64,000 nt of DNA, from NCBI GenBank assembly GCA_002049455.2, contig KV918883.1, positions 1 through 64,000 of the forward strand. The letters are read 5' to 3'. This document shows, in pieces, positions 4,577-39,409 of this stretch. The notes below the pieces were generated by a model, which worked only from the letters and a program-made list of their open reading frames with translations, did no database searches and was not told the DNA's origin. Source of the stretch: Porphyra umbilicalis. Taxonomy: Eukaryota; Rhodophyta; Bangiophyceae; Bangiales; Bangiaceae. The position numbers were made by a program, and so were the translations under genes. The stretch's first letter is position 1. Each line of letters begins with the position of its first letter.

Positions 4577-6447
4577 CTACAGCTCCGGAAAAATGAAGCA
4601 ACGATCACGCAGGGAGGGCCCATCAGCAACGCACCCGCTGCACAGGCAGTTTGGCACGAGAAGACCGACATTCAACTCAGTTCCAAACAGAGAAGAAAGC
4701 TGTCGGTTGATGCACCCGCTCATTTGCAAGAATGTGTGCACGTCCACAAGCAAATCGAGATCCGCTTTGACATCCATCTTGACGGTATCGACCAGACGCT
4801 GCGGCCAGCCGTCTTGCTCGATGTCCGTGACGATATCGAGCGGGATGACGTCGCCGAAGCGCTCGCTTGTGTCCACGACAAGCAGACCTTCGTGGCGCAC
4901 GTCGTCAGCTGCTCGATGAACGGCAGCAGGGCCGGCTGTGCCGTGGTACAGAAACGGGGTCGTGCGGCAAACTTGGCGGACGTCAAATCTGGCAACGGGA
5001 GCATGACTTGCGACGCGTCGACGAAACTGCGGGGCGACGTGCGCGCTCCACAGAGACTGCGCATCCTCTGAGAGATCTTCGTAGCAGTCCCTGACTTCCT
5101 TACCTGGCCGGACGGCAATCCGGCACGGCACAGCAGTCCCAGCCCTCTTGGCACCCAGGCGCTGAAGACACGCAAAAACATGGCTCACGTTCTTCGGGCC
5201 GACGCATGCTCACGCATGCACAGAAGCAAGTGACCTTCATATGCGACGCACGTGTCGACTTAAAAGATGCAGCACGGCTAGCACATGAGGGCAATGTACG
5301 CCCAAGCCAAAAGCAATGGTCGCCACAACCACGATCCCCGTCGTTGACGCGAACAGATGCTCTGTCGCCGACCGGTTGTCAAGCGCAGCATGAAAGATTA
5401 AGAGTTGAAGGGGATGTACTGCGAAGCGATCAGAGCAAAAGCCAAAGCATCAGCCAAGTCCTGCAGCTTCGTGCCAACCCGCGCCGCCTCGGATCGCGAC
5501 GGTGTGAGAAAAATCATGTTCCCACCGATGTCGTGGCACGTGGTGGCCAGATGAAAAGCGTATGCCACACGTTGGGAGTGCTCAAATTTTGCGCGGCAGT
5601 CCTCGATGCGGGAAAAACGGCCGTAGCAGAAAGCAGCATCGCGGTGAATAACGCGAATGACAAGGTTGCGGCGCAGGAATGGGTCGCGGTGAACCACAAG
5701 AGTGTTGCATGTTGAGCGCCTCCCGCAGAGTCGATTCTTCGTTGATCGGCACCGTGGCGGAGAGAGCTAGTTGTCGGCCACTCCTAAAGCTCGATGCTGC
5801 GGCGGAGAGGTCCGGGCGCAAGCGGCTTCATGTGTTGAACAAATGACCCTCATCAAAAGCAACGAGGCCGGGTCCCATAGCCTTGCCCTTGGTGAATAGC
5901 GCCGGGTTGGTAACGTCCGCCTCAGGGGAGGCGAAGAGGATGACGAAAGTACGAGCTGCAACTGCCTGATTCAGTTGAATACGCTCAATCTTCGTGGTGC
6001 TCCTCCATAACCCACGGCACTCGATGCCGGCGTCCTGGAGCGTCTTGACGTGCTGCCGACCGATGCCGTTGAGAGGGGTAACAAACACCGTAAAAATCCG
6101 TGAATGCCTGTGCAGCAGCACGGCTGCCATCCCGACGATAACAGTCTGTGATTCACAAACGCCACAGGCGCCCGAAGCGGAACGAAGCGCTGCATGAGTT
6201 AGCAAGGGCCCATACAAGACAAGATAAAACGACTCAACGACGCCGGCCTGCACGTTTGAGATGTCGCCAGTGACGCGTGTCGTACCTTTCCGTGCCCAGT
6301 CCCCATGACCGAGAGGACGCTGACATTGGGGACGTCCTTGTCGACGACTGCCGTAATGGCCTCGAGTTGACCATCTCGAAACTCCTCATGCTCGAACGTG
6401 CTACGCAGAATGCACTCAGCAGCCGCACCACCCGCCTTCTTGTCCAT
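4577..6447 (-). pseudogene. RecQ-type DNA helicase, broken
   Basis: Reading down the minus strand the superfamily-2 helicase motifs appear in order. There is an EFRDGQLEAI motif 0, then Walker A as MGTGHGK (about 6290-6310), motif Ia as TPLNGIGRQH, motif II as DEGH (about 5840), motif III as LSATVP, a RecQ-like RRNL block, motif IV as MIFLTPSR, motif V as VVVATIAFGLG (about 5300), and a weak motif VI near 5150. A GT-AG intron of 38 nt at 6248-6285 restores the frame just after Walker A. The gene is damaged: an in-frame TGA at 5828-5830 sits where RecQ proteins have Trp after motif II, and the frame shifts near 5713 and 5395. The C-terminal ~200 residues (to 4577) are unrecognised. In fungi such helicases are known as telomere-linked genes; here it lies downstream of a tyrosine recombinase. 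Confidence 0.8.
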
Positions 6448-8826
6448 GACGATGCTTCCGGTACCTCGACGTGCTTAAAGGCGAAGAAGACAATGACAGT
6501 GGTCAACCTCTCAGCGACTGTTGCTCGTTGTCCTGAAACGTCGGCTCACGTACACAGATGGGGATTGGGAAATAGCAGCCCACGTTGCTCGATCACGGCC
6601 ATTCTCCAGCTGTTGATTACAAAATCAGGGTACCATTTGTCTAGTGAAACGTAATGCAGCATCAAATGGGCCTTCAGTATTTAAACTTGAAAGGGCTCCT
6701 TGGCACAAGTGCGCTTTGACGTAGAAAAGTGGGACACGACTTCCCCGCACAGGACATGCGACCACGACCACCTCTTCTTGGCATTGCAAATCAGCGTACG
6801 GGTGAGACGACAGCCAGCGGTGCCTTAACTTCGTGTCAGCCTGTTTGCGGACCGTTGCCTCCGGTGCCGACTTGTCGGCCGTCACACACAAATAATTCCG
6901 GACGTGGGCAGGAAGCTTTGTGCGCGGTTCGGCGAGAGCGCGGGGCTCGCCTTCGTCTCACCCATGGCGTGTCGTACCGTCGCCGTTGCCCACGGATCAA
7001 CCATGTTGCACTGCACCTGCGAGGGTGTAGGAACAAGTGGGCCATGGACACTATCAGGCAAATACTCTTTGGAACCTGACCCATCGTCTTCACCTGTGTC
7101 GCTTCGTCTATTGTAGAGCGTGTTGTGCCTTAATGGTACTACTGGCGCAATGCTCCAGCCCATGGTGGCTTCATGTGCACGAAACTGAACAAGGAAAAAA
7201 CATGAGGAGCAGGCACCCCGCGAAACATCCGCAAATGGTGCACACACAAACACAGTGCGCTGGCCTCGTAAGCAGAGCGAGTGCGCGGCTTCACTCCTCT
7301 GCCGAGCATCCGAGAACCAAAGAACGCGCTCCGACAACCGCCGGGCACCCCGCTACTGGGCATCTCGCTGTGGACGAGCCCAGGAGCTCGAGCGACGGTG
7401 GAGCACGTCCAAGGACTGTGGCCGCGTTGTCCGAGACAAGAATGTGACGGACGATGCCCTCGCGCGAGTACGAGTGCGCGCAAAGACGGCTGCACAGGCA
7501 CGACTCCGGATCAGCAAGGTGATTCAAGCTTGCGACACAAGACCAGCGACCCACTGAGCCAGAGAGAGAGAGCTGTTAGGTGGTGGTCGAAGATGAAGAA
7601 GTAGAATTCGTTGGCCACGATGGGCACATGAAACACAACAGAGAGCACCACAGTTGCCCAGACATAGAACTGGAGCAGCACACCTTCGCACGGGCTGAAC
7701 CATTTTCAAAGAAGTAATTGGGCACCTCAGTGGTGCTCGAGACAAAGACACCTCGACGACCTCACAAGCTTCCCCCAATTTGCTGGACTCGAGAACAGAG
7801 ATCTCCTGCACAGAGGACGATGCATCCGCCACCCGAACATTTCGCCACGACGGCTGTTCTTGTCTCACGTCAGCATCCTTGCACATAGGCTGGAGAGTCG
7901 CAGCGCAAACTGACACAAGACACCCTCTCACGGAGCGTCTCGCTGAAAGAGAGCCGAGCAACTTTAAAAATCTGGCCGGTTTGTCGTCAGATCATCAGGA
8001 GAGTTGTTGGAGTCGAGCACGTGGTAGACAACGTCCGACAACGTGTACGAATGCAAACAGTGGCAACTACGAGACAGGGAGAGAGGACAATGAACAACGA
8101 TAGCTGGAAAGAGGTAACACATGGTGTCTGGTCAGTGTCGGCGCACAGACGTTTTCTCATCAGAGGCATGCGTGAAACCCGGGCACATGCGTAATGACCG
8201 ACGTGTACCCTGTCCCGGAAAATCGGAGCCTAGAAAAGATCATACGATGAATTTTCTCGGATTGATCTCGGCTTCAGTGCATTGCAGCGGCGCCATTGCC
8301 GTACCAGTGAATAGGGCCACGTACCTCTGAACCAGCGCAGTTCCCGTCGGAGTTAAGCACATCCTTGGTTCAGCCGTCTTCTCGTCGATGTCGTCTCGCG
8401 CTGCAGAAATGCGTACCGTAGCGAGAGCAGCACAGTACGCAAGCAATGGGGCAGACGAGCGCGACTGCAGCAGTGGACCAGTGCAAGCCTGGAAGCAAGA
8501 TAGGGACGACTTGGCAGGCTGCCCGGCGTCGCACCAGAGCACCAATGGACGTGGGCCCGCGCCTGCTACGCGAACAACAGATGCATCACGATCATTCATT
8601 GAATGAGTTGAACTTTCATTTGTTGCACGAATACAACTCATGTTTGAAACAATGTTTTAGCATTCATGTGCGGTTTGTGCATTAGAATGGCGTAGGAAAG
8701 AACCGAACAAAAGCACGGTTTTTCGTACCGTACTCAAGCCGGAGCCTTCATTGCGAATACGGACCGGCTCTACCCCGCGGCAACATTGTGCCGTCGGGCA
8801 CGTGCATGAGAACCTCAGAGGCTGCG
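6448..8826. other. Unassigned interval between helicase and recombinase remains
   Basis: No frame is convincing over its length. On the minus strand at about 7290-7560 there is a Cys/His-rich stretch (CLCSRLCAH followed by CPVAGC) that could be a zinc-finger N-terminus of the helicase, and 6625-6890 reads in a coding-like way, but the pieces are in different frames. This may be the decayed N-terminal part of the helicase gene plus the spacer to the recombinase. Confidence 0.4.
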
Positions 8827-10820
8827 TCAGTGTTCCACCGGAGTAGAACGCACCTCAAGCCCCAGCTCTTCAAGGACGGCAGCAGTCACCTCACCACCTT
8901 GTGCAATGACGTCAGCGAGCGCGGCTTGCGGGGTCGTGTAGGTGAACCTCTTTTTCAGTTGATTGCTGGCTTGGACGTACGCAAAGTAGGCGGAGATGGT
9001 TTTCCAATGGCCTCTCTCCTTGATCTCCTGGTCAGGTACGCCAATGAGGCGATAGAGCTGCATCCCACCGCGCTTGAAGGAGTGCGTGCCCAGGAACCTG
9101 TAAGAGTCCACCCCAGCTTCGTCAAAGGCATCCCGCACGTCGTTCAAGAAGGCACCGTCCCTAAGCGGCGTCACCGGGTCCATCACGTACAGGACCCGGC
9201 GACTCAACACGCTTCAGCAAGTAAATGGCGAGTGCAAGCACAGGGTCAACACGAGGGTCACCAACAGGCCCTGAGCCACCTTCTATGTAGTAATGATGAC
9301 CATTGGTAGAATTCTTGGTGCCCTGCAGGATGTTGATGCGAAGAACGGGGTTTCCAAAGATGTCCTTGGTAAGGAGGACGTCCTGGCGCCTGAAAAAGAG
9401 AACCAGGGAGCAATGTGAAGCCATTTGGAAGCGCTCACCCCTCGCCACGCGTCAACAAAGCCGAGCAGCGCAAGTCTGCTCTGCCTACAAGAAATTGCCG
9501 AATGTCGCGAAACGAACATCTTGCACCGCAAATATTGAGTGAGGACCAACTTTGTTGGGATCACGGGATATAAAGGCAGCAACACTTCGCTCCTGCTCTC
9601 CACGAGGCGCCGGCATGTCTCCAGGGACTTCATGGAAGCACGACGGTGCAGGGGTTGGGCTCAACAGATGGCGGTGGGTGGACTGGGGGCGGATACGAAG
9701 GGGGCGTTGACGGAGTCCACGAGAAGTTGTGGATCATGCAAGGCAGAAATGGCAAGACGCAGCGGCCAATCCGTCCACGAGAACGATCACCGGCAGGACG
9801 ACGAGCTTTGCTCCGGCTGTCCCGCACATTCAGGTGACTGCCGTCAGATTCTCTGTACTCCGAGTCGCTTCCCTGCCGCAGTCACTCAACTTGTTGCAAC
9901 CTGGGCCAGTACTGGCTTTGTTTGGGTGCAAGGTCCAAGAAGCTTTCGCACCTCATAGCTGAGCCCGTTCGTGACGCCCTCATTGGAAATGACATGAAGC
10001 ACCTCAAGTAATGTATCAGAGCCAAATGCGCGCCGGGCAGGACAGCTGTGGTAATGACGTGCCAGCGGCCGCGGGTGCTCATGAAAAGATTCTGAAAAAT
10101 AGGGTCGATCCTGACTTTGAACCAATCAGACGAGCCTGATACTGGCTTGCATGAGCATCTTGAACAGGAACGATCATACAATTTTGACTCGTACAATTGG
10201 TCGACACGCTGACGAAGCGCTTGGCATCGGCCAAAATCGAGCAAACAGCCATAGGTTTCTGCAACGCACACACCGCATCCGAGCCACAAAGAGAGCAATT
10301 GACACAAGGCGCAGTACGTACAGAATCTTGGTGACCTGATCAAATCGTAGCAGGTTGAACGTAGCAACCATCATGGCCGCAAACTGGCCCAGGCGACCCG
10401 GGGTTACGTCGTCATGATCCTTGATGAAGCGATCATAATAAGCACATATGTGCCCGTACTCTAACGCGTCCATAGGAACCGGCACACGTCCTTGTGCAGC
10501 AAAAGCAGCCTTGTGGGCGCTTACACACTTCGTGACGTCGTCGCTGTCGTTGGGATTGCCATTGACGTACGTACCCTCTTCACCGACTTCACCGGTGGGC
10601 CAGAGCCCTGAGCAGCCAAGCTTCTTTAGGTACAACGTCATTTGCGCGGAGATATGCTTGGACGTCGACAGGCCTAGCTTGAAGTTCTTGGTCCGAGTCT
10701 TGTAAAAGTTTGCGACATGGGCGCCAGTGGAAGCCGAGACATCGGTCGGGTTGACGCCAAGGGCGGCGCAAAACGCAAGGTAGTCGGCACGCATCGCCTT
10801 GTGAAGCTTTGTGCTGCTCT
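8827..10820 (-). pseudogene. Tyrosine recombinase (Crypton/YR type), interrupted
   Basis: The C-terminal block (about 9120-8950) shows THSFKRGGMQLYRL followed by ERGHWKTISAYFAY, the box with the HxxR-type His, the second His and the catalytic Tyr of tyrosine recombinases. The Arg of HxxR is Lys here (HSFK). Upstream (9448-9200) lies a core segment with RRQDVLLTKDIFGN, and at about 10,340 FNLLRFDQVTKI, a good candidate for the first catalytic Arg. The first part (10,800-10,330) is a helical N-terminal core-binding-like domain. A 63-nt GT-AG intron is likely at 10,259-10,321. A frame change near 9205 separates the core from the catalytic box, and 9540-9960 cannot be read cleanly, so the gene is probably dead or has more introns than can be seen. 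Confidence 0.7.
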
Positions 10821-11344
10821 AAGATCGCACCGCCTCTTGCGTCTCCTTTGCAAGAGAAACTGCATCGTACGAAGACGCCGGTGGAACGTACTGCTGCCAA
10901 TCGTCGCGACGGGCAGCACGTGTGCAGTTGTCCATCGTGTGTGCCAGGCGGTTCGTCGATAGTGACGGAGAAGTGGCGCCATCCTGAGTGTTCGGCGACA
11001 AAGAAGAAAACGCCATAGTTGCGGTGCGTAAACGCCGACTCACAGTCGTTCGAAGAGGTCAAGAGCAAGTCAAAAGACTTGCAATACGGGCGTTCTAAGG
11101 GATCGGACAGACGTACTGCGAGCGGGTCGTAACGCTGAAGTCACCAACGCGAGCACAAAGACGCGGTCCCAAGAGCGCCTGAAACGAGATGGGGTCAACC
11201 TGGTTCCCGAAAGTGGCCCGCTTTCAAGAACTTTGAAACTGAATTGTACCTAGTATTTTGGACCCAGTTTGTATCAGAACTGCAATCAAGTTGCCCCCCT
11301 TCTATGTTGCGAGAAGCGCCGGAACACTGCTGCCCCGCGCGCTG
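10821..11344. other. Upstream flank of the recombinase
   Basis: Short minus-strand frames between 10,820 and 11,070 may be an additional 5' exon of the recombinase, but no motif supports this. From 11,070 to 11,340 nothing is seen. Confidence 0.3.
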
Positions 11345-12316
11345 TCACGCAGTGCGCACGCGGTGACGTCTGTGTGCTCCGGCTCGCTCAGCGATTTTGA
11401 GTCCCACAGAGAAGCGACCTGTATCACCTCTCGCCGTCGTGCTCACTGCACTTGGTGCATCAATCGTGACCAGCGGTGCCGCGACCTCACTATCCCTGTC
11501 TGACGCGGCAACCCGCTCTACCAGCAGAGCCTTACGGCAGGACGCACAGGCATGCCCTGCCGGTTCTTCCCACGCTTTGCTGTCCACGACGAAGCTGCCG
11601 CTGTCGGCCGCAATCAACCCCATTCTCCGCGCCTTCGCTCCCCGCTCGCTGCCAGAGCACCTCGACGGCCTTCGTCGCTTCCCAAGGGCACTAAGTTCTA
11701 GTGGGAGCCCGGGTGGAGATGCGGGCGTCACCAAGGCGCTTCGCGCAGCCATTATGCCCAAGATGAAGTTGTTTGAGGTTAACCATCGACGGGGAGCAGC
11801 GCGCCGTGGGCTCCCGGCGCAGATCACATTTTCAACCAAGCTTTTGTCCGGGGTGGTGCACGGCCCGCCGTTGGTGACCTCTGTCGTGGCAAGAAAGGAC
11901 GCCAGTACCGGGGGTCCTCCTTCTTTGCCAGATTCGAGCCCTTCATCTGCAGCAGCGGACTGCGGCAAGCTCCGCTTCAAATGTCGCAAGCCATCCACTG
12001 GTCCGGTACAGCTTGCGCGCCACCCCGTAAAGATCAATTTGAAGCCGTTCACCCTTACGCCCTTGCCGCGGTACTGAGACAAGATGCTTGACGCCGTGCA
12101 GGACTCATGGGAAAAGGGTCTTAACGGCGGCCCAGCCCTCAAGACGTTTGAAAGTGGCTCCACGAAGCGCGCCGCAATGGCATCCAACAAGCAGCTACTT
12201 GGCCGGGTGTCTTCATCGATGCTGTCGAAGGGCGGTGCAATCGCCAAGACCGCCACCAATTCCGGGGGTTGGAGCGCCCTGCGCAGCGTGCTTGTTCGGG
12301 AGCGAGGTTCTCGCAA
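11345..12316 (-). CDS. Uncharacterised protein frame (323 aa), strand uncertain
   Basis: A 323-codon minus-strand frame with a basic GKRRR cluster at about residue 215 and a CxxC pair (ACASCRK) near residue 260. An alternative plus-strand frame, 11,397-12,077 (226 aa), overlaps it almost completely; one of the two is a shadow. The minus frame is favoured slightly for its length, cysteine pair and basic segment, features seen in DNA-binding proteins of mobile elements. No family is recognised on either strand. Confidence 0.3.
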   Translation of the reverse strand: MREPRSRTSTLRRALQPPELVAVLAIAPPFDSIDEDTRPSSCLLDAIAARFVEPLSNVLRAGPPLRPFSHESCTASSILSQYRGKGVRVNGFKLIFTGWRASCTGPVDGLRHLKRSLPQSAAADEGLESGKEGGPPVLASFLATTEVTNGGPCTTPDKSLVENVICAGSPRRAAPRRWLTSNNFILGIMAARSALVTPASPPGLPLELSALGKRRRPSRCSGSERGAKARRMGLIAADSGSFVVDSKAWEEPAGHACASCRKALLVERVAASDRDSEVAAPLVTIDAPSAVSTTARGDTGRFSVGLKIAERAGAHRRHRVRTA

Positions 12317-13260
12317 GCGTACGGGTACGGCCTTTCCCTACAACAAAGTGTACAAGTTCTGTGCCACGCTCGTCTCTAAGGCGGACCTTTGTCCCTAAAG
12401 AAGTGGCGGCTGTCCCGCGTTTTTGTGTGTAGTAGCAATTTCATCTGCTTCTCTTCGGTTCGGTGCCGTCGTGGTACGCCGCTTTGATTTTGTAGCTCAG
12501 GACTGGGCACTGCGTGCGATGCGGAGAAGGAAGAATTCCCCAGCTTCTGCTCCTGAGCGAGGGTGAGCTTCTGGGTTGATGTCGAAGCGGCAAGCGGATT
12601 TTCGACCTTTACTCTGGCCTTGCGAAACGACAACACATTTATTGTGTTATTTGACTGTTGATCTTCTTCTAGATGAGTTGTCTCACTTCATTTTGTCATT
12701 GAATTGCATATAACAAGCAATTAATAGTACTAGAGTTTGTATTGCGCGGAATGTGGAGTACCTATTGCACGAGACAATTGCTGTTCCGATCGCTCGGCTG
12801 TTGGATGCTGGCGCCCGTTCGGTCACCACCCTGTCGACGCTCCTCGTGACGCGGCACCTGAACAGCCGTTTGCGGGCCGGTCGGGGCTTGTTTCCTGCCC
12901 TACGCTACGCACAGAGAACCTTCGGGTCCGAGTCTCTATTTTTATTGTTGTTTGGTATCACGTGGAAGGCGTTGCAGATTTCCTTCTCGGTACGTCACAC
13001 ATGTCTGAGCGATCCGCTCACTCCTTTCGCTTGTGGTACTCCATCTGGCGCGCTGTGGCTAACATGCCGCGTGCATTTGAAGGTTTCTTGTGATCATCAT
13101 CGTTCCGTCAAAGACGTTATCTGCACAACTGCGCTCCATGCAACGTTCGTGTTAGTAACATGCGCGTTCGTTCGTTCGTCTTTGTCACTTCTCTGTCTAT
13201 CCACCGTACGATGGTTCCGATCCGTCCTCTGCTATATGTCCATTGAATGTTCTATACCAG
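12317..13260. other. Intergenic, less GC-rich
   Basis: Short frames only. The segment 12,630-12,760 is the most AT-rich of the neighbourhood and could hold the promoter of the downstream plus-strand gene. A sequence resembling a 3' splice site (TCTATACCAG) ends at 13,260, directly before the first coding-like codons of the next gene. Confidence 0.35.
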
Positions 13261-16013
13261 AAGGTGCCTGCTGGCGAAGCTCCTGGGGCTGCTGCGGCGG
13301 GAAAAGATGGTGCTGCGACCGAAACCAAAAAGGCCAAGCTGACTAGAAAGGAGGTGGAAGAATCAAGTGCTGCACCCCGTACCAGATCCCAAGCCACACG
13401 GAAGCGGAACTTGCAGATACTTCCCATTGAGGCCTCGCTTCGGAAACTTCGGAAGCGCGGAAATGCGTCCGCAGCAACGCCAACTCGCCAATAAGTTAAC
13501 GTGGTGTTTGGCAGCGATGCCAGCAGCGATGCTGAAGATGAAGGTGGCAAGATGGTCACAACCAGCCTCCCCAACGTGGACAAAGAAGTCTTTTGTGAAG
13601 GTGGCAGCATGAACAGCAACGTGGCGTCCGCGCCGTCGTCGCGCGAGTTGCCGCATTCGGCGGCACAGAGGACTGGGAGCCCGACGGTCCGCGATGTTGT
13701 TGGCCGCGGCACCGTGACCAAGGCGCTCTCCTCTTTGTCGCGCGCCCCGCGGCCGCTTGCGGCAGTTGGGCGGACTGAAGATAAGACCAGCAGCAGCACT
13801 GTTCAACACAAGGCGCTCGTCCCGTCGCCGCCCGACTCTTCGCCGGCCGCTACGTTGCCGCGCGCGTCGTCCCCGCTCGCGGTGACCGCAAGGACTGGCG
13901 GCAGGATAAGCGGCGGTACTGTCGGCCGCGACACCGCGGCCCAGGCGCCCGCCTCGTCGGCGACCGCCTCGTCGGTGCCCTCCTCGTCGGTACCCGCCTC
14001 GACGGCACCCGCCTCGTCGGCGCCCGCCTCGACGGCACGCGCCTCGTCGGCGCCCGCCTCTTCGGCGCCCGCCTCCTCGGCGCCCGCCTCGACGGCACCC
14101 GCCTCGTCGGCCCTCGCCTCGTCGGCGCCCGCCTCGTCGGCGCCCGCCTCGTCGGCGCCCTCCTCGTCGTCGCCCGCCTCGTCGCCGCTCGCGGCGACCA
14201 CGCGGACTGGCAGCACGACGGGCGGTGGAACTGTCGGCGGGGACGCCGCGGCCAAGGCGTCCGCCTCGACGCCGCGTGCGTCGTGGCCGCTCGAGGCGAC
14301 CGCGCGAACTGGAAACACGACGGGCAATGGCACTGTCGGCGGGTACGCCGCGGCCAAGGCGCCCCCCTCGTCGCCGCCCGCTCCGACGCTGCGAGCCTCG
14401 TCGCTGCGCGCCTCGTCGCCGCGCGCGATGCCGACGCTCGGGGCGACCGCGCGGTATGGCAACACGACGGGCCGCGGCACTTTCAGCCTCTGCAAGGCTC
14501 CCAATCAGCACGATTCGGATCCTGATACGTCTTTTGCTCTGAGGGCGTCGACGCGGATAATAAAGACTGCGTGGCCGGGGCGAGACTCGTGTGCGATGAT
14601 GCATGGCAGTACGGACAACTGGGAGCAAGATGCTCTTTCGGCTGCATTGACAGCTGCTTGTGCGGCAGGTGATGATGCTGCATCAGGGGTCCTTCTGTCG
14701 GCGGTACCACCGGCGGTGGTCGCTGCAACGGCAACCTCCGTTGCCGCCACAGCAAGCGACGCAGCGGAAGGAACCACCAATTTGCCTCACACGCAAGTTG
14801 CTGCATGCTTTCCGCCCCCGCTTCAAGGCGACACCGCGTTGTCATTGCTCCCGGGCGCCACCGCGACGATCCCTGGACTCGGGGACTCTGACGCGCAGGT
14901 CGCGCGCCGCCAATTTGGTTCCAGCCATCTTTCGTTTTCTCCATCAATCGCCGCGCTCGGAGATAACGCGTCCGGTCCCGATGGTCCTCAGTTCCTGGAG
15001 CCGAGTTCTTCCACGACGGCTCGGCAGGAGGTGGCGGCGACTCGATGGTGGTGCAGCCAGACCCTGGTGGTTTTCCAGCTGCTTCAGCGAAGCTGGCGTC
15101 TGTTGGCGAAAAGCCTGTGGATGCGCCGCCACGATGTGCGCCGGTCGACGACGCCGCGCTGCAGCGCACGTACACGGCGGAGCGCCTCGCATGGCACGCA
15201 CGCTTCTCCGAGTGGGGCATGTCCTGGGAGGATGACCTTCACGCTGAGTTCGTGGAGCTGTTCACCAGGGCCGAGGACATCTCGCCGTCGTATGTCATCA
15301 ACTTTGCGTCGGCCAAGGTGACGTGCGATGCACCAGCTACCCGCATTGGCGTCCAAGAGTGGTTATCGCGCCTCCTGAACGCGGCGACGCAGAGAGTTCC
15401 TGTGGCGGTGGCACAACCGCTGTGCCGTGTGCGCAGAGCGCACGCCCTCATGGTCATCACGGCAGCGTACGCCAAGTACGGCTTCAGCCTGCCCGAGTCC
15501 GAGAACGCCCACCCGCCCGCGCTTCCTGTTGGCCTGCACGGTGGCAATTCAAGTGTCGGTCCTGCCACGGAGGACCGCTGCGGCGCACTTTGCTCGCACC
15601 CTTCGCTTCGCAAAGGCAAGCACGTTGCTGCCGTTGATGGATTCGAGAACTTCGACTTCGCGCGCTCCCGGGCACCAAAGGTAAGCGGAGCTGCGGTGGC
15701 CATGTCGGCTGCCAAAGTGAAGGACGTAGGCGCTCTGGACGCTAAGGGGCGACACGACCGGACGATGGTCCGGATGATGACGGCACTCGGCATCATGCTG
15801 CAGATTTACAACCCTGATGCCGAACAGTGGCCCTCCGTCCATGACGTCTTCGTGCACATGCCGCGTGATATCTTGGAGGGGATATCAGAGTTCTCCATTG
15901 GCCTCATGCTGTCGTCCTGGAGGTGGGCGCGCCGGGGTGAAAAGGGTCGCGAGGAGCGGACGTATGACCGGCTGTACTCGTTGGCTTTGACGATTCTTCT
16001 GAATCGTGGGTCC
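13261..16013 (+). CDS. Repetitive Ala/Ser/Pro protein with conserved C-terminal region, frame broken
   Basis: The first segment is basic (KKAKLTRKEVEES, RTRSQATRKRN), like a nuclear protein. After a TAA at 13,492-13,494 the same frame runs to 15,321 and contains an acidic stretch, an ASSAP-type five-residue repeat (13,930-14,185) and four or five longer repeats with ATARTGNTTG and GTVGG (13,870-14,490). Between about 14,965 and 15,045 coding shifts to another frame that stays open to 16,013 and looks globular (WEDDLHAEFVELFTRAED and later DRTMVRMMTALGIMLQIYNP). The breaks may be introns, sequence errors or decay. The repeat-rich N-terminal half and compact C-terminal half suggest a low-complexity arm plus a folded domain of unknown family. 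Confidence 0.45.
13930..14185 (+). repeat. 15-bp coding minisatellite (ASSAP repeat)
   Basis: About fifteen tandem copies of a 15-bp unit close to GCCTCGTCGGCGCCC, with variants that change Ser to Thr or lose one base triplet. The unit length is a multiple of three, so expansion and contraction keep the frame of the surrounding gene. Confidence 0.8.
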
Positions 16014-22452: not shown

Positions 22453-24537
22453 TCAGCAAAGCCCAATGGCCTCGACATGCCTGTCGTGCTTGAACTTGCT
22501 GAGCTCCTCCGTCAATGGGTCCGCCACCATGTCGTCCTTTGCACAATGCTCCAGTGTCACCTTGTCCGTTGTGATGGCCTCGCGCACAAAGTGGTAGCGA
22601 ATGTCGATGTGCTTCGTGCGCTTGTGGTCGACGGGGTTCTTGGAGAAGTCAATGCACCCGCTGGTGTCGACCTTGATGTTGATCGGCCCGCCCGAGATCG
22701 CTGTCCGCAGCCCTTGAGATGCCAAGCTTTGCACGAGCTTGTTGAGCCAAACAGCTTCCTTGCTGTCCTCACATCGAGCCATGTACTCGGCTTCCATCGT
22801 CGACAGCGCCACCGTCTTTTGCAACTTAGAACCCCAGCTTACGGCTGCTCCGCCAAAGATGAAGGTGAAGGCAGTCGTAGAACGTCGCGTCTCGTGGTCA
22901 CCCGCCCAGTCGGCATCACTCAAGCCTTGCAGAACACAAGAAGAGTTCTTGTCGAAGACCAGCCCCGTGTCTATCGAACCCTTGACGTACCGTAGAACGC
23001 GCTTGATCGCCGCCCAATGCTCCTTGCCGTAGCACGAAACAAACCGACTCAGCTTCCCGATGGCGAAGGCGACGTCAGGACGCGTACCGACCATTAGGTA
23101 CATGAGACTGCCGACGGCTTCGCGGTAGGGCAGCGCGTCGTCGCTCTCGTCGGCCTTGACCAGCTGCAGGCCCACCTCCAGCGGCGTTCCGATCGGGTTG
23201 TACCCCGTCATCCCGAACTTCTCCAGCACTTGCGCCGCGTACTTGCCCTGCGACAGCTTGAAGGTGCCCAACGCCTTGTCACGCCAAATCTCCAGCCCGA
23301 GGATGACCTTCGCCTCGCCCAGGTCCTTCGTTTCAAAACGTTTGTGCAGAGCGTCCATAATCTTGTCGATCGCCGCCAGGCTTGATGCCACCGACAGGAG
23401 ATCGTCGACCTACACCGGGACGGTGATGATGTCGCCGTCATCCACAAGGAGGTTGAGGCATGCATCCGGGTCAATGTCGTCAAACCCCTGCGACTTGAGG
23501 AAGTCGTCGAGCTTGGCGTACCACATCTTGGGAGCTTGCTTCAGCCCATACAGCGCTTGGAGGAGACGACACACCTTGCCAGGATACGACGGATCGACAT
23601 AGCCGTCTGGCTGCTCCATGTAGACCTCCTCGTCAAGGTCGCCGTTGACGAATGCCGTCTTGACGGCCATCTGATGTAGCTCCCTCCCGTTCGCCGCCGT
23701 CATCGCCAGGATGCATCGGATGGTAGTGAACTTGGCCACTGGCGCGAACGTCTCGTTGAAGTCGAGCCCCTTGATCTGCCGGTTCCCCATGAAGCACAGG
23801 CGCGCCTTGTGCCGCGTCGTGTTGTTCCCGTTCTTGTCAACCACGTTCTTGACCTTGTACACCCACTTGCCCTTCAGCACGCGTCGACTGGCCGGGCGAT
23901 CCGTCAATCGCCAAGTCTTGTTCTTGCGGATGGCCTCCATCTCTTCATCCATGGCAATCTGCCACTTATCCGATTCCTGCCCTTAAATGGCTTGCACGTA
24001 CGTCGTGGGCGCCTCGTGAGCAACCAGGCTCACCGGGCGCCAGTACTCGACAGGGGGTCGCCGCGCTCTGCCGCTCCGACGCAGCGTGTCTTGAGAGCCG
24101 CCACAACCTTGATTGTCGTCCGCGGACTTGTCAGATCCATCGTCTTGCTTGTAATCCCTGTCTTCATTGTCAGCATTCACGTCTTCGCCGTCGCTTGCAG
24201 AGCGCAAACCCGTCTCGACTCCGACGTTTTCGTCTCCGGGAAGCTCTTCTGCAACTTCTGCCACCTGGCTTACGTTCGTGTCGGCGAAAACGACGCTTCG
24301 TGCCTTGACGACCTTGCCGTCGTCGAGAATGACCTTGTACGCCTTGCTGCCGTCGGGATAGCCTAAGAAGACGCCCTTCGCCGCCTTGTCGCCAAACGTG
24401 CCGTCGATGTGACTCTTGTGCAGCACAGCCCAGCATGTCGACCAAAACACCCGCATGTTGCTTACGTTGGGCTTGTTCCCGGTCCACAGCTCAACAGGCG
24501 TCTTGCCGACGGGAAGCGCCCGGCTGGTGACGCGGTT
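22453..24537 (-). pseudogene. Copia Y element 1 pol (integrase C-term, RT, RNase H), broken
   Basis: Recognisable blocks on the minus strand are the integrase C-terminal LWTGNKP and GVFLGYPDGSKAYKV region (about 24,500-24,350), RT from about 23,950, and RNase H with SWGSKLQK and STMEAEYM (about 22,840-22,790). Lesions: TAA at 23,983-23,985; the motif-A catalytic Asp of RT replaced by Ala (codon 23,665-23,667, MAVKTAF); and the Tyr codon of the YVDD active-site box turned into TAG (23,410-23,412). RNase H is intact and unshifted here, unlike elements 2 and 3. Confidence 0.85.
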
Positions 24538-24538
24538 C

Positions 24539-24951
24539 TGTTGGTCTGCGATGCTCGTCGCCGACTCCACTGGCGGTTCGCGGCTGGATGATGGTCTGTC
24601 AACCCCATGGTACCGCTCATGGTACATTTGCAAGACGTGGTCAAGTTGCACACATTTGTGTTGAGTCATCTTGGGGCGTTACTTTTGCCGTGTTGTGGAT
24701 TTGATCTTCGCTTTGCTCTAGTGGCTTTTGATTTGGTGAGTGATTCGATTTGGTGCGAGGGCGTGGGCGTCGCTGTGGGCGCCGGCGGGGGGAGCACTCT
24801 TGCCGGTGGGGACTTTTTGAGAGGTGCTCTGGGTTAGGAGAGGCGGGGAACCTGAGGACAAGCAGCAAAGCCCGTTCACACACACACAAGCTCAAGCCAC
24901 TCAACCACATCACCGTGGTCCCCCAATCACTATCCCCACTGCGTTTCAACA
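24539..24951 (+). repeat. Family Y LTR L2, inverted relative to element 1
   Basis: A 413-bp LTR with clean ends, TGTTGG...TTCAACA, reading in sense on the plus strand, opposite to the pol fragment it abuts. Same subfamily as L1 at 22,006-22,417. Confidence 0.9.
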
Positions 24952-24965
24952 GGTTGTGGGCCCAG
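24952..24965 (+). promoter_or_regulatory. Primer binding site next to L2
   Basis: GGTTGTGGGCCCAG immediately follows the CAACA end of L2. It differs by one base from GGTTATGGGCCCAG, the sequence beside the 5' LTR of element 3. The latter is complementary to the anticodon arm of initiator tRNA-Met, the internal priming site used by Drosophila copia. Element similarity ends directly after this site. Confidence 0.75.
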
Positions 24966-26679
24966 AAAATTCCAGCTAAAGCTTGTTGGCTCTGCAGGAG
25001 GTTCAAGATTCATATCTCACCTGAGGGCGACTTGAAATCGCAGGAGCCTGGGGATTGGCTTCGTCATTCAGACCTGGCGGCTTGAGGTCCTGTGAAGTTA
25101 AGAGGAGTCTTGGAATATAAGTTTGAACTCCTCAAGACCATTCAAACCGGTGTTGTAGCTGTAGCTTAGTGGTACAATTTTCGAATCCCAACGCAGGGTG
25201 CGACCCAGAGGACGGGCGCAGGTATAAACCGGTGGTGGCGAGAGAAGCCTTCAGTATGAAGGGCATGCGGCGCAGCTGCACCAGGACAGTACAGGTGGGA
25301 GAGTGAGGGTATCAGACGCTGGCAGCGGGGGCAGCAGCGGAGGCCGCGGTCACGGCGGCGCCTTGTCCAGGCCAGCCCAGGCAGCTGCCGCATGTCGAGG
25401 GCTGATGGTAGCGGCTGCAGTCAGCTAGCGGCTGCAGGAGGGAAGAGGGGGGGCGTGGCCGGCACGCGCCAGCAGTGGGGCGGGCAGCAGCCACGGGAAA
25501 CGGCGGCAGTGGCGGCGGGCCGTACCGGTAGAGGGCGGTAGTGAGGGGGGGGCGGCAGTTCATGGGATGTGGCGATCTCGTGAGGGGCGGGGGCTGGTGG
25601 CACTGGCAGCAGCGGGCAGGCAGCGGCAGCGGCGGGGGAGGGAAGGGGAGGCGCCGGGAGATGCCAGCAACGGTGTCGGCCAGGCGGCCATACAGGCGCC
25701 GCAGGCTAGGAGGTTACGGGAATTTGCCGCGGACTGCGGCTGCAGGTAGGAGCGGAAGGCAGCGGGCGCGGCAAGCGGCAGCCAGGTAGGCGAGCGGCAA
25801 GGCGGGGCGGGGATGTGGCCGGGCAGCACGGGCGGCCACGGCGGCCGTGGCTGCCGCAGCGCCAGTGGCCAGTTCAGACAGTCGCGGCTGCCAGGAGAGT
25901 GGTGGCAACCGCGGCGGATTGGTAGCGGCTACAAGGAGGGAGGGGAAAGGCCGGGGGATCCAGGAGGCAGCGGGGAGGGCGGGCCGCAGCGGGGGGGCGG
26001 GCGGGGGGAGCGGGCTGCAGGGGGGGTGGAAGCGTCGCGTCGCTGGGTATTCCCAAGGACAGGTAGGTAAGAGGAAGAAGGAACAACGTCTGGCATTTAT
26101 ATGAGTAAGCCAAGTCCCGTGGGAAGGCAACTCCAATACACTACACCCCTGCTGGAAGCATGAGACAAGGGGGGAAGCAACTGCCCTGAATGGTGCTGTG
26201 AGAGCGTAGAGTACAGTGCGATTCCAGCCCGTAGTATTGCTATCCTCCAAAAAATGGCGGTTGCAGAGAACGAGGTTGCAGACGACTGACCATGATATAG
26301 AAATGCGATTGGATTGGCTGATGCTGAGGGCGGCCGAAGACTGTTGGTTTGAATCTGGCGCTAGCCTTCTCGCAAGCCAATGGCGTTCTCCTACTGAAGT
26401 GTTGCAGCGCGTCTGCGCCCAAATCGAGATAATTAGAGACGTTCTTCAGATTCATCTGGCCCGAACGTTTCCTGGAGGCATTGTGGGGCCAGATGTGATA
26501 CTTCTCGAAAGATTGTGGGGCTTCTCGAGATTTTCTCAGATGCTGATGTGCCTTTCCAGGCCGTAGGGCCATGTCCGCCAAAACTGTAAGGATTCTTTCT
26601 AGATTCCGCCCATTCCATTGGTCCTTGTACGCTGCATGATGATTGCAACCTCTCTGCAACCGCCAACAATTTGGAGGTC
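24966..26679. other. Unassigned; contains a weak family C copy
   Basis: The segment 25,310-26,060 on the minus strand resembles family C (words like CGCTACCATCAGCCCTC in place of the copy-1 motif). A tRNA-like scrap lies at 25,153-25,200. The interval 26,060-26,680 shows nothing recognisable. Confidence 0.4.
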
Positions 26680-27065
26680 AGCAATATAAAATATATAGAA
26701 AGACACTCCCCTGACCGCGACCACTCTCCGTGCCTCCAGCGGCCGGAATCAGGGTGTAGAGTACAGTTCTCTCAATGCGCCCAGGGCATGCTGTCAGCTT
26801 TGGTCCACAACTGTGCCGACCTCGCTGATGCGACCACTGAGAGGGGGGGAGGCTGCGAATAGCAGGGCCAGTCTCGTCCATTAGCCACGCATCGCCCGCG
26901 CATTCCCGTCGTACCTGTGCCTGATGAGACCAAGTTTCTGACAGTGCCGCGCGGACTTGCGCTTGCTCTCGATATTTCAATTGTGGCTTTCAACTACGCC
27001 TGCCGAGGTCGACGTAACCTACAGGAATATCCAGCGACGTGCCCTGCCCCCCGCCCTGCCAGCCC
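26680..27065 (+). repeat. Dispersed repeat family B, copy 2
   Basis: Aligns over its full length with 19,660-20,035, same orientation, beginning near an ATATAAAATATATAG box. The shared CCTGTGCCTGATGAGAC word is at about 26,915-26,931. Confidence 0.6.
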
Positions 27066-27067
27066 CC

Positions 27068-27806
27068 CCGCGCAATGGGGCTTAGACCGTGTACCGTACG
27101 GATCTGCGAATCCTCTGCAATGGCTTGTTGCGGACGGCTTGCAGGTCTGGAAAAGTGGCCGCGTGAGCCACGAGCAGCATCATTTCCTGCAGCAGATATC
27201 TGCGGAGCAACTCATTGTCGTGCATTTATGCAAAAAAATCGGAGGACCGGTGCTTTTCTTTCATGGAAAGCACCGTGACGGTGCCGAGATCTTGTGCCCA
27301 AAAGGTCCAGCGTGTTCCTCCGTTTTTTTCTGCCCACGACAAGCCTTTATTGTTTATGACCTGCAGGAAATCTGCTGGTAAAATGTTGCAGGTCGCTGCC
27401 GGACCCCTGTTGCAGCGCACAAGTTCTGCGCCAAATCTGTGGAATCATGCCACTGGGCTGCACTTGCAGCGCATGTCTTCAGCATCACGTCTGCTGCAGA
27501 AGGACGATAACGGCTTCCTTTTGGTGGAAGCGAGATAACTCCGCGCCTGCCAGGAGTTATACTAGCGTGCAGCAGAAGAAGAGCACGAGCTGCGAAAGGT
27601 CTTAGCATTCGGATGATCCAGACAAGCAGCGAAAGAGCAGAAATCATGCGTGCCGATGTGCCAGATATCTGTTGAGCCAGCAGGCTGCCAGCACAAAATG
27701 GCCCGGTCTGCAGCCATTTGGCAGACTGCGGAGATCCTGCAACAGCCTGCAGAACGGAATCAGCAGATCCGTAAGGTACACGGTCTAAGCCCCACTGCGC
27801 CGTGGC
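27068..27806. repeat. Imperfect inverted repeat (~85-100-bp arms)
   Basis: The left arm at 27,068-27,150 contains GGGGCTTAGACCGTGTACC and then GGATCTGC; the right arm, the reverse complement, is at about 27,705-27,806. Similarity fades inward, although a CAGATATCTG palindrome is retained in both halves. It could be a fold-back element. The internal 550 bp have no recognised gene. Confidence 0.55.
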
Positions 27807-28599
27807 CGATGCCCTTTTCGGCGCCCCCCGCCGGCGGCTGGCTTCCCCGTTGCCGCCCGCAACCCGCGCCATGGCATCTCCCCGTCCAGCTGCAACTGCT
27901 AACCGCCAGGGTCGCCCAGCCCCCTGTGGCAGCATGGGCACACGTAGGCCTGCGAGATTTGACGGCTGATGCAGCCATTTAATTGGATGATCCACAGACG
28001 GTCACGCCCTTCGGGCGGGTCAAACCCGGAGCTCGGCTAAGTAAGTCCGAGATCCGTGCTTACCGGGATTATCTAGACTAAGCGATCTCCGAGCGATCAC
28101 GAGACCAATTCCGCGTGATCGGATAGTGGTTGGAATGACCCACTTGTGATTCCCGGACATACCACTCAACGGTCGGCTGATTTATGGCCGCACCCTTGCT
28201 TTGTTCTTTTCGTTGTCGGGATTCTTATCTGATGTGCTTGGTGCATCTCACCCTCGCCCCGGGGATTTTTGTTGGCGTGTTTTGATTGGGTCTTGGGCAC
28301 GGCCCGCTGGCGGGTGTGGCCCGCGTTTGGCCCGTGTTTTTGGCACTCTGGAGTGGGTTTGCCTGAGGGTTGAGGGACGGGGATCGGTGGGTATATCTGA
28401 GCGGGACAGCAGAGCGGTGCCGAGTCCCCGAGGGAGGCAAGTAGACGTTGAGCCTCACAACGCTGTGTCGTGTTTACGGCTTGTCTTCGCCGCCCACACC
28501 AGTTGTGTTTGTGTGTCTTGGCGATTGCTTCCGGGGTCTTTGACGAGACTATCGAGCGCACGGACGGGACGACCGCCCCAGCAGGGTCGGCCTGCCTGT
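27807..28599. other. Unassigned
   Basis: Mixed composition with small palindromes around 28,006-28,030. No domain or repeat partner was recognised elsewhere in the window. Confidence 0.35.
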
Positions 28600-29666
28600 G
28601 TTGTCACACCCCCTGCTTGCGGTGCCCGCCTGATCTGGTCGCTGCCGCCACCGCCGCCGCCACCGCCGCCGCCACCGCCGCCGCCGCCGCCGCCACCGCC
28701 GCCTCCGCCACCTCCGCCAGCGCTGCCGCGGCCGCGGCCGCCGCCGCCGCCACCGCCGCCGCCGCCGCCACCGCCACCGCCGCCGCAGCCGCCACCGCCG
28801 CCAACCCCACCGCCGCCGCGGCCGCCACCGCCACCGCCACCGCGGCCGCCATCGCCGCCGCCGCTGTTGCTACTGCTTCTGGGGCTCCCGCCAGCTGCTC
28901 GCTCCTCTGCCCCCCGCTCTACCTGCAGCCAGGTTGCCGCCCTTGCCACTTCCGCCGCTTGGCCTGGCCTGGCGAGGCCGCGGCTGCCGGCAGCGCCGCC
29001 GCTATCCCCCTCCCTCCCTGGTTGTGGTAGCTGCTTACTTCCACGACCGCTCCCGCCAGCCTTCCACATTCAATATCCGGCCAGTCGCCGCCGCCGCCAC
29101 CGCCACCGCCACCGCTGCAGCCGCCCGCCCCCGCTGCCGCTGCCAGGCTGCCGCTCCCCCCCCTTCCCTGCTGCCTGGTCGCCATCCCCCTCCGCAACTT
29201 ACTTTTTCCTGCTGTTGGTTGCCTCTGATGGTATCTTCCCCCCCATCTACAGCAGCTTCTCGGCCTCTGGCGCTGTCGGGGTGCTCCCCCCACGGAACTG
29301 TTGCTTCCCGGCCGCCGCCCAGTCACCCTCGCTGCTGCGACCTTCCTCCTGCCGGCGCTGGCCCCAGCATCTACCATCCCGGCGCCCACCTTTCCGCAAT
29401 TGTCATCGTGACCAGCCCCGCCCCCCACCCCGCCGTCACTGCCCGGCCGCCGTCGCTGCCCGGCCGCCGTCGCTGCCAGCCTGCCCCTGCTGCCACCCAC
29501 CAACATCCCTGCTGCCGCCGCCTTCTGTCTGTTGTTGTGCAAGGCTGTCAGCGTCCTTCACTCGCTGGCAGCCTTAGTCTGCAACTTGCGGCGTGGGACT
29601 CCCCATGGTTGGCCTCTCGCTATCACCGGCCATCGCACGCCGCCGCCCCGACGAATATTCAAGACC
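28600..29666 (+). repeat. GC-rich dispersed repeat family C, copy 2
   Basis: It contains a long (GCCGCCACC)n-type tract at 28,640-28,860, then words shared in order with 20,280-20,800. Open frames made of Pro/Ala runs are not accepted as genes. The repeat is cut by the family X LTR at 29,667. Confidence 0.55.
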
Positions 29667-30581
29667 TGTTGGATCCCTGAGAGAGGTAGCCACCGCGCGC
29701 ACACCGTCGTAACGACGTACGTCCGCCCCCGCTCGTCAGCTGGTCGGAGTGGGAAGCCAAAGTCTCTACCGAGCGTGTTGGGCTACCTTGCCGCTCCCGA
29801 CACCCCTCTTACACCGGCGCTGCTCGCACCTGCCCCCAGCGCGCCAGCCCCCGCCAGCGCACGCAGCTCCCTGTCCGGGCACCCCCGTGCCCCAGCACGC
29901 TCTCCCCACGTGCTTCCCCGCGCTCCCGCGCCTAGTCCGACGCACGCCCTCCCCGCGTGCTCCCCCGCGCCGTCGCACCCGAGCCGGCTCATGCCGTGCC
30001 AGCGTGCCCGTGCGCAACGTAGTGCCGACGTGGTGGCAGCCGCCACGCGGCTCCCCCCCCCAGGACCCCCAGTGGCCAAATCCCGTCCCCGGTCGTGTCG
30101 TGTCAGCCAGCCAATGAATCGCCGGGGTCCCATTACTTGGACCATCCGTGTCCATTCATTTGGCCTGCTCTCGTAAGCTGCGCTTGCCGGGGCAGAGGCG
30201 AACCCACTGGGGCATGCCCCAAAGGGGCAACGCGTGATGCCAGACCGCGCCCAACGGGGCGAGGCGTGAAACCAGACCGCGTCCCGCCTCCCCCGCCGCG
30301 CCGCATCGCGGCGCGCTTGTCTCCGCGCCTCCACGCGGCGCGTCCCCTTGGCCGCACCCGCCGCGCCCACGCGCGCCGCAGCCCCAGCCGCATCCCCACG
30401 CGGCCTCCCCCCCCGCGTGCCACTGCATTGCTCATGCAGTGTCACGCGGGGCTCCGCCGCACCTGAGCCGAAGCGGCAGTCGTGGCGGGCGTAGAGGCCC
30501 CCACGTCAGGTGTGGCCGGCCGCGGGCCGGGCCCTCCATCCCCGCCTTGCGTGCGGCCGCTGTCCGGTCCTGGTGCCAACA
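29667..30581 (-). repeat. Family X 3' LTR
   Basis: 915 bp, TGTTGG...CCAACA. By eye it differs from the partner at 46,169-47,083 at about 17 positions, with no length change, so the insertion is relatively recent. Confidence 0.95.
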
Positions 30582-31308
30582 ATCCCACCCGAGCGGGGCC
30601 GGTTTCCCCGTCCGTCATCCCCAATGTCGCCCGGCACTTATTCAATGCCGCCGTCGGCAGGGGCTTGGTCAGGCAGTCCGCCACCATGTCCGCCGTCTCG
30701 ACGGCCTCGACCTCAAGGCCCCTCCCGTCCACGCACTTGTGCACGAAGTGGTGCGCGACGTCAATGTGCTTGGTGCGGTAAGAGCTTGTCGGGTTGCGCA
30801 TGAGCGCGATAGCCCCCTGGACTTCGAAGTGCATGACGACAGGCTCGTCGCCCCGGCCCAGCTCACGCACCAGCCGCTGCAGCCAGATGGCCTTCTTGGC
30901 GGCCATCGCCGCTGCCACGTACTCTGCCTCCGTGGTGAAGCCAGCCACCGTCGCCTGGATCTTGCTGCCCCAAGAGATGGCTCCGCCCCCCCAGAGGAAA
31001 GCGTGCCACGTCGTCCAGCGCCGCGTGTCGATGTCGCCAGCGTAGTCAGAGTCGCTGTACCCGACCAGCTGGCGCTTGCTGCCATAGGTGATACGCCAGT
31101 CGCGCGTACCTTTGCGGTACCGCATGACGGCCTTGGCCGCCGCCCAGTGGGCCTGGGTCGGCGCGCTCACGTGGCGGCACAGCTTGCCCACGGAAAAGCT
31201 GATGTCCGGCCGCGTGCACGTTGCCAGGTACAGGAGTGATCCCACCCCTTTCTGGTACTTGGTGGCCAGTGACGGCCCTAGCAGGGTCCCCTCCCATTGC
31301 CTCAGCAC
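30442..31308 (-). pseudogene. Family X RNase H and end of pol
   Basis: Shows LLYLATCTRPDISFSVGKL, GYSDSDYAGD and ISWGSKIQATV followed by TEAEYVAA, then RTKHIDVAHHFV, the standard Copia RT-thumb/RNase H run. The frame continues about 140 nt into the 3' LTR before stopping at 30,442. It is separated from the RT frame upstream only by an in-frame TAA at 31,309-31,311. Confidence 0.88.
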
Positions 31309-32083
31309 TTATGCCCCCATCGGCAGGCGCACAGGGTTGCTATCCGCCAAGCCAAACCGCTCCAAGATGGTCGTGACGTACTGCCGCTGCCCAAGGGACA
31401 GCAGCTTCTCCTTCCGGTTGTGCCATATGTGCATGCCGAGGAAATACGTCGGCACGCCCATATCGCGCACAGCGAAGGTCCCGGTCAACGCGTGCTTACA
31501 AATGTTGACCGCCTTGTCCGAGGCGCCGGCCACCAGCAGGTTGTCCACGTACGCGAGCACAAAGACCCAAATCCCGCCAAAGGTCCCGAAGAACAGACAC
31601 CGGTCAGCCTCAGTCGCCCGCATCCCAGTCGCCTGCACCACCGAGGTCAGCTTCTTGTACCATGCGCGCGACGCCCGCTTGAGGCCGTACAGCGCCTTGA
31701 GTTGGCGGCACACGTTTCCACGCCCGCCGCGCTCGTACCCCGTCGGCTCGCGGATGTATACTGCCTCCTCCACGACGCCGTTGAGGAAAGCAGTCTCCAC
31801 ATCCAGCTGGCAGAGCGCCGATCCGTTGCCGACCGCCGCGGCCAGCATCGCCCGCCAGGTGGCATGGCGCGCGAGAGGCGCCCATACCTCTCTGTAGTCG
31901 ACAAGGTAGACCTGCGTGTCGCCCCGCGCGACGAAGCGCGCCTTGTGGCGACTCACGGCGCCGTCGGTGCCGCGCTTCCACTCGCACTTCATCTGTGGGC
32001 CCGTCACATTGGCGCCCGGCGGAAGGTCCAGTAGCTCCCAGGTGCCATTCCGCCATAGGGAGTCGACCTCCGCCTCCACGGCC
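31309..32083 (-). pseudogene. Family X reverse transcriptase
   Basis: RT motif A is normal (LDVETAFLNG), as is the LKALYGLKRASRAWY block. The active-site box reads YVDN instead of YVDD (Asn codon at 31,540-31,542), which would be expected to damage catalysis. The frame is cut at its 5' end by the Y element 2 insertion and resumes at 37,048, where an in-frame TAG (37,062-37,064) lies just upstream. Confidence 0.88.
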
Positions 32084-32501: not shown

Positions 32502-32536
32502 CTCCTCCTTGCTTGTTGCCGCGGCGGTTCTTGTTT

Positions 32537-32907: not shown

Positions 32908-32908
32908 C

Positions 32909-36463: not shown

Positions 36464-36607
36464 GGTGTCTTCTTGTCGTAGCGCCCGACCTTGCCGAGCC
36501 GTGCGCCTTGACCTTCACGTCCTTGAACCACCTTGACCTCGTCCTCTTCGCACTTGCCGCGACAGCCGCGACACCCGCCGGCCCACCTCGCTCTTGTCAC
36601 AGCCCCT

Positions 36608-37042: not shown

Positions 37043-37047
37043 CGGCC

Positions 37048-39001: not shown

Positions 39002-39036
39002 CACCTTCTTGCTTGTTACCGCGGCTGTTCCTGTAT

Positions 39037-39408: not shown

Positions 39409-39409
39409 C

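Follow-up and report, generated by a model that had tools for sequence, protein, structure and literature searches.

The window, a 64,000-nt stretch of contig C123 in the 83.8-Mb genome (665 contigs) of the red alga Porphyra umbilicalis, contains a broken copy of a large mobile element that recurs many times in this genome. The eukaryotic nature of the host also fits the genome's size, its introns, and its Copia elements. On its minus strand lie the degenerate genes of a tyrosine recombinase (YR) and a RecQ-family helicase. The two genes are very probably parts of one large DNA transposon in which the YR acts at a 4-bp core, the RecQ helicase is a fixed partner, and two more genes, A and B, encode further conserved proteins. 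This reading is built on the co-occurrence of the two genes, their spacing, their matched divergence, low ratios of nonsynonymous to synonymous substitution (dN/dS) between families, a shared right end, a left end shared by four copies, the same core at both ends of two copies, and a target site that is known in its empty form. A preliminary description of the window had assigned the recombinase and the helicase to a single mobile unit with a layout unlike that of a standard Crypton. Both ideas hold: the genes recur together at near-constant spacing with the right boundary beyond the helicase, and the layout comprises four or more conserved genes over 40-45 kb. A shared element was thus correctly proposed, but it is far larger than the two genes (40-45 kb in three copies) and carries at least two additional conserved ones.

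Pairing of the recombinase and helicase genes

Copies of the element were sought genome-wide, and the match counts are lower bounds. There were 52 YR matches listed, of which 26 were close (at least 49% identity) and were scanned with ~1.5 kb on each side. Copies are referred to here by their contigs. A helicase gene lay downstream of the YR on the same strand in 24 of the 26 close copies. In 22 it was within 1.5 kb, and degenerate pieces were present in C29, C233, and C264. The pairing is far beyond chance because the same two genes co-recur across the genome. In the window the genes share an orientation and lie ~2.4 kb apart, as described before; the gap is 12.6 kb in C119. The preliminary description had suggested asking whether the spacing is constant. 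Start-to-start spacing was 988-1220 bp in 19 of the 21 copies with both coordinates, but C119 (12599 bp) and the window departed from this range, and the gap in the window is unusual in containing ~1.8 kb of extra DNA.

The two genes have also diverged in parallel. Pairwise distances of the YR and of the helicase were strongly correlated among 24 copies (Mantel r 0.94, reached in 0 of 2000 permutations), with near-identical copies included, which raises r. Between families, most YR pairs were saturated, and the two with dS <3 gave a dN/dS of ~0.04; the helicase had 13 pairs below this dS limit, with values of 0.10-0.28 (nine at 0.10-0.12 and four at 0.26-0.28). Between the window and C77, dN/dS was 0.07 for the YR, 0.23 for the C-terminal part of the helicase, and 0.37 for gene A.

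A third YR group occurs in five places (C281, C103, C156, C7, and C38). A second RecQ group lies downstream on the same strand in three of them, at ~3 kb in C281 (C281:93444-97180), ~15 kb in C7 (C7:54140-69968), and ~25 kb in C103 (C103:28890-55268). Because of these three places, the pairing may predate this one family, although this evidence is weaker.

Ends, size, and target site of the element

Where does the element end? The copies in C1, C77, C411, and C110 are 96-98% alike and all break at one right-hand point, which is marked by a conserved block of ~100 bp. This right-end block was found in 15 places. It was located downstream of a YR or helicase match, on the same strand, in 11 of the 15, and without neighbouring genes in C160 (two blocks) and C90. 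The block terminates in GTTA in 11 places, in GATA in C233 and C429, in GGTA in C383, and in GTTC in C119. A boundary between the two genes, or copies consistently without the helicase, had been named as findings that would speak against a common unit. The boundary lies past the helicase, and this comparison favoured the pairing, with exceptions in two copies that are considered below.

Beyond the right end in C1, C77, C411, and C119 lies an abundant repeat with the terminus CACGCCTAGTTAAGSCTGCTCTTCTGGG. A 33-bp pattern of this terminus had 103 matches with up to three mismatches, and its reversed control had none. The repeat is a terminal inverted repeat (TIR) transposon with the termini CACGCCTAGTTAAGSCTGCTCTTCTGGG and CACGCCTAGTTAAGACCCAG. 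It measures ~1.28 kb in C77 and C411, contains a 77-bp internal palindrome, and has further copies, for example, in C234 and C289. In insert-free copies of the repeat, the unoccupied target site CACGCCTAGTTAAGSCTGCTC was exact in 9 of 12, and the other three were variants. Because the empty site was known, a left junction consisting of CACGCCTA-GTTA followed by other sequence could be predicted. The prediction was testable in C1, C77, and C119; the C411 contig starts inside the element. A search with CACGCCTAGTTAB, that is, CACGCCTAGTTA followed by a non-A base, gave 24 places, compared with 6 for the reversed control. Four of the 24 were upstream of a YR in the correct orientation (C1, C77, C119, and C177), and in all four the left end reads GTTA-TCCYTGC. 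Past the left core, C1 and C77 are identical at all 131 bases compared, with host flanks that differ, and C119 matches C177 at 138 of 141. The left-end sequence common to the C1/C77 and C119/C177 groups is TCCYTGCSRGGAAA.

The alignment of copies suggested in the preliminary description as a way to find element ends and short direct repeats was productive: C1 and C77 have the same 4-bp core, GTTA, at both ends, and the empty site contains it once. C119 has GTTA on the left and GTTC on the right. From end to end, the element measures ~44.5 kb in C1, 40.1 kb in C77, and 44.7 kb in C119, the last including ~12 kb of extra DNA. Only the left end was found in C177, 21.5 kb before its YR. The three delimited copies sit in a GTTA inside the terminal repeat of the abundant TIR transposon. 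The termini of C77 showed no inverted match longer than 7 bp to each other. In 8 of the 10 copies measured, the start of the YR match is 3.1-5.4 kb away from the right end; in four copies, the YR is 21-39 kb away from the left end. It reads outward.

Two candidates for further YR elements at these sites were rejected. One was the repeat next to the right end of C77, C411, C1, and C119: it could have been another YR element's left end, but its own other terminal repeat was found. Likewise, a 126-bp insert in the same GTTA region of a C29 terminal repeat (C29:366221-366430) is a small element of unrelated sequence with its own inverted repeats. Adjoining the element in C77, a long open reading frame (ORF) of ankyrin-like repeats was seen by eye (C77:170923-172998).

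Protein family assignment

The helicase assignment comes from a profile of the copies, a comparison that the preliminary description had recommended. Against PDB, 38 of the 39 sequences matched at E<=0.001 belong to the RecQ family, by name or as we take them to be. The best match (5e-26) was to 1oyw_A, which we take to be E. coli RecQ. The copies have a superfamily 2 (SF2) core that is closest to RecQ, with a DEAH box. For the part of the profile that covers motif VI, the best of 54 PDB matches up to an E of 1 were RECQL5, RecQ, and BLM at ~1e-4; the same list contains two unrelated MctB entries (0.0015-0.0018) and weaker DEAD-box ones. The RecQ form of motif VI, QxxGRAGRDG, is present in other copies and absent from the window copy. 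The C-terminal part of the helicase has a cysteine motif, GCxNRQL...FG...CxCSGC (positions 5209-4577 of the window and the alignment of copies), which is located more than 200 residues after motif VI. It resembles what we take to be the RecQ zinc site but is presumably farther from motif VI than in a typical RecQ.

Kinship with telomere-linked helicases, which had been raised for this gene, was rejected on position, as many copies are far from contig ends (at 289 kb of 971 kb in C1, 159 of 274 in C77, 201 of 327 in C46, and 158 of 267 in C84). A few copies lie less than 6 kb from a contig end (C48, C275, C110, C429, and C355). In C48 and C275, where the distance is 1.7 kb, no telomere-like repeat was seen by eye in the first 260 bases of the contig.

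For the recombinase, a profile that includes four more distant relatives was compared with an alignment of XerC/D, FimB/E, Int, and Cre. The residues R, H, W/H, and Y fell in register with an E of 2e-4, a score that was reached by 0 of 100 column shuffles. In other words, the catalytic R, H-x-x-K/R, H/W, and Y occur in order within a sequence that aligns with a YR profile. Pattern searches yielded 61 matches in viral contigs (IMG/VR) and 153 in genome contigs, none of which was confirmed as a YR relative. An AlphaFold model of a 128-aa piece of the window YR, made without an alignment, had a mean pLDDT of 50 and was unusable.

The copy in the window

The features of the window copy are given in Table 1. 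The motifs reported for both proteins in the preliminary description were recovered in order on the minus strand. In the recombinase they are LLRFDQV (10353-10333) with the Arg, the His-box THSFKRGG (9087-9064), and ERGHW (9018-9004) followed by YVQAS (8979-8965). In the helicase, motifs I (MGTGHGK, 6306-6286), Ia (TPLNGIGRQ, 6079-6053), II (DEGHLF, 5854-5837), III (LALSATVP, 5770-5747), and V (IAFG, 5317-5306) were located, and candidates for motif 0 (FRDGQLEAI) and motif IV (GNMIFLTPSRSEA) were spotted by eye in the ORFs. The C-terminal CLCSGC is retained at 4648-4631. The motif names are those that we take to be customary; the identity of the two proteins as YR and RecQ rests on the profile comparisons instead.

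Table 1. Coordinates of the element's features and of the DNA around them in the window
Feature	Position	Strand	Basis
YR gene, degenerate	8821..10968	-	tblastn with C77 ORFs (69-80% identity), spacing, motif positions, profile alignment of copies with bacterial YRs
YR, first part	10968-10285	-	tblastn against C77 ORFs
YR, catalytic C-terminal part, with a frameshift near 9190-9200	9394-8821	-	tblastn against C77 ORFs
RecQ-family helicase gene, degenerate, at least five matched pieces	4580..6447	-	58-70% identity to C77 pieces; profiles of the copies match RecQ-family PDB structures
YR-helicase intergenic stretch	6448..8820	.	~1.8 kb longer than in relatives; YR-helicase distance 2957 bp versus 988-1220 bp in 19 copies
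Gene B, conserved in the element, function unknown, with one in-frame stop	11421..12386	+	53% to C77 protein
Gene A, conserved in the element, function unknown	13321..15992	+	59% over 14991-15992; weaker piece 13321-13527; C77 homology stops at 15992 inside the gene
Copia-type long terminal repeat (LTR) retrotransposon pieces, several, where the element's left arm is expected	22456..46284	-	RVT_2, Retrotran_gag_2, rve, SH3_retrovirus, and related families in 6 of 9 window ORFs scanned

Both genes are spread over several reading frames, as judged from the ORF list and from tblastn against C77. Relative to C77, ~720 bp of extra DNA splits the two parts of the YR. The helicase lacks the exon with motif VI (QQFGRAGRDG in other copies), and ~490 bp of C77 correspond to ~54 bp here (5263-5209). 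The extra DNA between the two genes is probably a later insertion. The ends of the window copy were not found by fuzzy search or by short-word blastn. The window copy is an old, inactivated remnant and cannot be active because it carries frameshifts and extra DNA, lacks motif VI and recognisable ends, and has Copia elements on its left.

Genes A and B

Genes A and B were recognised by comparing the window with C77, and in the window both are on the strand opposite to the YR. Gene B was found upstream of the YR in 23 of the 26 copies. It was not found in C233, C48, and C275; the C48 and C275 contigs start 1.7 kb upstream. Gene A was found upstream of the YR in 19 of the 26, up to ~13 kb away, and it was on the opposite strand in 16 of these 19 (C46, C29, and C92 differ). 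Neither protein had a Pfam match. In C77 and C1, there is also a weaker A-like match farther left. Tandem partial copies were observed in which A and B are present twice, ~9.6-9.9 kb apart, beside one recombinase (C41:217657-232257 and C108:168227-192761). At C21:387267-391304, a right end is accompanied by B and A with no YR or helicase match, probably as an internal-deletion derivative.

Proposed mechanism and alternative explanations

How might such an element move? The YR would cut and rejoin DNA at the 4-bp core GTTA, or at its variants GATA, GGTA, and GTTC at some right ends. The element would most likely be excised as a circle and then inserted at a matching core in the target. Strand exchange at the core, probably between circle and target, is suggested by analogy with what is established for tyrosine recombinases, and the YR is the presumed mover. 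A preferred target is the terminal repeat CACGCCTA-GTTA-AG of the abundant TIR transposon. The RecQ helicase, as the fixed partner, would most likely act on recombination or replication intermediates by branch migration or unwinding, and A and B are further conserved proteins of the element.

Several results weigh against assigning both genes to one YR transposon. No helicase was found in the 1.5 kb scanned beside the YRs of C10 and C387 (2 of 26). Conversely, 19 of the 26 helicase matches have a YR within 1.5 kb and 7 do not; in the window and C119 the YR is farther off, and in C40, C11, C7, C103, and C505 none is close. The match lists for 21 more distant YRs (15 like that of C9 and 6 like that of C15) contain no helicase match downstream on the same strand within 50 kb. 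Within young families, dN/dS was 0.07-0.83 for the YR and 0.26-0.76 for the helicase, and the young copies are therefore partly decaying. Only three copies have both ends identified, the core is perfect at both ends in two of them, and nested insertions, such as the ~12 kb in C119, may inflate the sizes. The YR itself matched no Pfam or PHROGs family and no PDB sequence. A profile of the ten close copies alone was weak against bacterial YRs (P 0.09; P 0.017 against Cre alone). The call of this protein as a YR is thus based on its motifs and on one profile comparison that is weak when the distant relatives are left out.

The 40-45-kb unit could instead be an integrated polinton-like virus (PLV) that uses the YR, with the helicase as its replication protein. 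Its size and a YR integrase fit this explanation, given that the available portions of two sources describe PLVs of 14-40 kb, some with YRs (PMC12220804, PMC10120064). The left 18.5 kb of C77 is also outside the parts read, which leaves room for viral genes and counts to that extent against a transposon. However, none of the eight ORFs tested from C77:145.4-153.4 kb had a Pfam match at E<=0.1, and no capsid, packaging ATPase, or polymerase gene was seen among them. Pfam gave nothing of note for A, B, and the YR either, and no YR relative was confirmed in IMG/VR. Furthermore, the helicases named for PLVs in those portions are SF1, SF3, superfamily-2-with-primase, and primase-helicases, and the word 'RecQ' occurs there 0 times (PMC12220804, PMC10120064). 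On the parts of the element that were read, a viral origin is unlikely.

The abundant TIR transposons could also be the movers, with the YR-helicase block carried as cargo between CACGCCTAGTTAAG terminal repeats by a DDE transposase. Such a repeat contains the right junction of C1, C77, C411, and C119 and the left junction of C1, C77, C119, and C177. To the right of the C77 and C411 copies there is even a shared ~1.28-kb TIR element, past which the host flanks differ. But seven copies (C110, C46, C40, C233, C70, C429, and C383) have the identical end point and lack that transposon, C1 and C77 occupy two distinct TIR subfamilies (GTTAAGC and GTTAAGG), the junction falls at a single base position, and the repeat is free of the insert in many copies. 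Transport as cargo is very improbable in the light of these observations. Passive pairing, in which two separate elements or genes were co-duplicated in a host segment, would account for the similarity of 96-98% over many kb among C77, C1, C411, and C110. It does not explain why copies share ends and differ in host flanks, or why the pairing has held across families with saturated dS, low dN/dS, and matching distances, and it deserves hardly any credence. A single large DNA transposon with a YR and a RecQ helicase is the explanation that we prefer.

Comparison with known systems

Transposon-borne RecQ helicases have precedents. The available portions of published work describe RecQ helicases in KolobokH and a rhodophyte Kolobok (PMC9587614) and in Academ DNA transposons (PMC3627910). 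The element described here resembles them in carrying such a helicase, but they use a DDE transposase, whereas its conserved partner is a tyrosine recombinase. PLVs are likewise large units with a YR, but in the parts of the element that were read no viral structural or replication gene was found, and a RecQ helicase takes the place of the helicases named for PLVs in the portions cited above. No described YR element with a RecQ helicase was found in the open-licence PubMed Central literature, which omits most subscription papers.

Cryptons are short elements of a few kb with a YR as the main gene. The present element is like them in having a YR as its likely mover, no terminal inverted repeat detected between the ends of C77, and a short direct repeat at the ends of two copies. 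It differs in its 40-45 kb, its fixed RecQ, its two more conserved genes, and a YR for which the libraries searched gave no sequence-family match among known YRs.

Starships, according to the available portions of one source, carry a captain with DUF3435 at the 5' end and are flanked by direct repeats; a preference for insertion into other transposable elements is described for some families (PMC12134995). Giant size (in three copies), short direct repeats (perfect 4-bp ones in two), a YR, and insertion into other transposable elements are features in common. The YR did not match DUF3435/PF11917 at E<=10 in a search whose filters drop most weak matches. The captain is the leading 5' gene of a Starship, whereas the YR here, 21-39 kb away from the left end in the copies measured, is close to the right end and points outward; a RecQ helicase is a further difference.

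By somewhat better than even chances, these elements represent a new superfamily of giant eukaryotic YR transposons, parallel to the fungal Starships, with RecQ as an obligate partner, site-specific insertion into the terminal repeats of other transposons, and two more conserved proteins of unknown fold. That RecQ has been kept beside the YR while the sequences diverged to saturation suggests that YR elements of this lineage require, or benefit from, an enzyme dedicated to recombination or replication intermediates when they transpose. This idea can be tested directly, since the ends are delimited and the 4-bp core and the empty site are known. By the features tested, the element is neither a standard Crypton nor a Starship, and it adds a giant, site-preferring member to the known range of YR elements.

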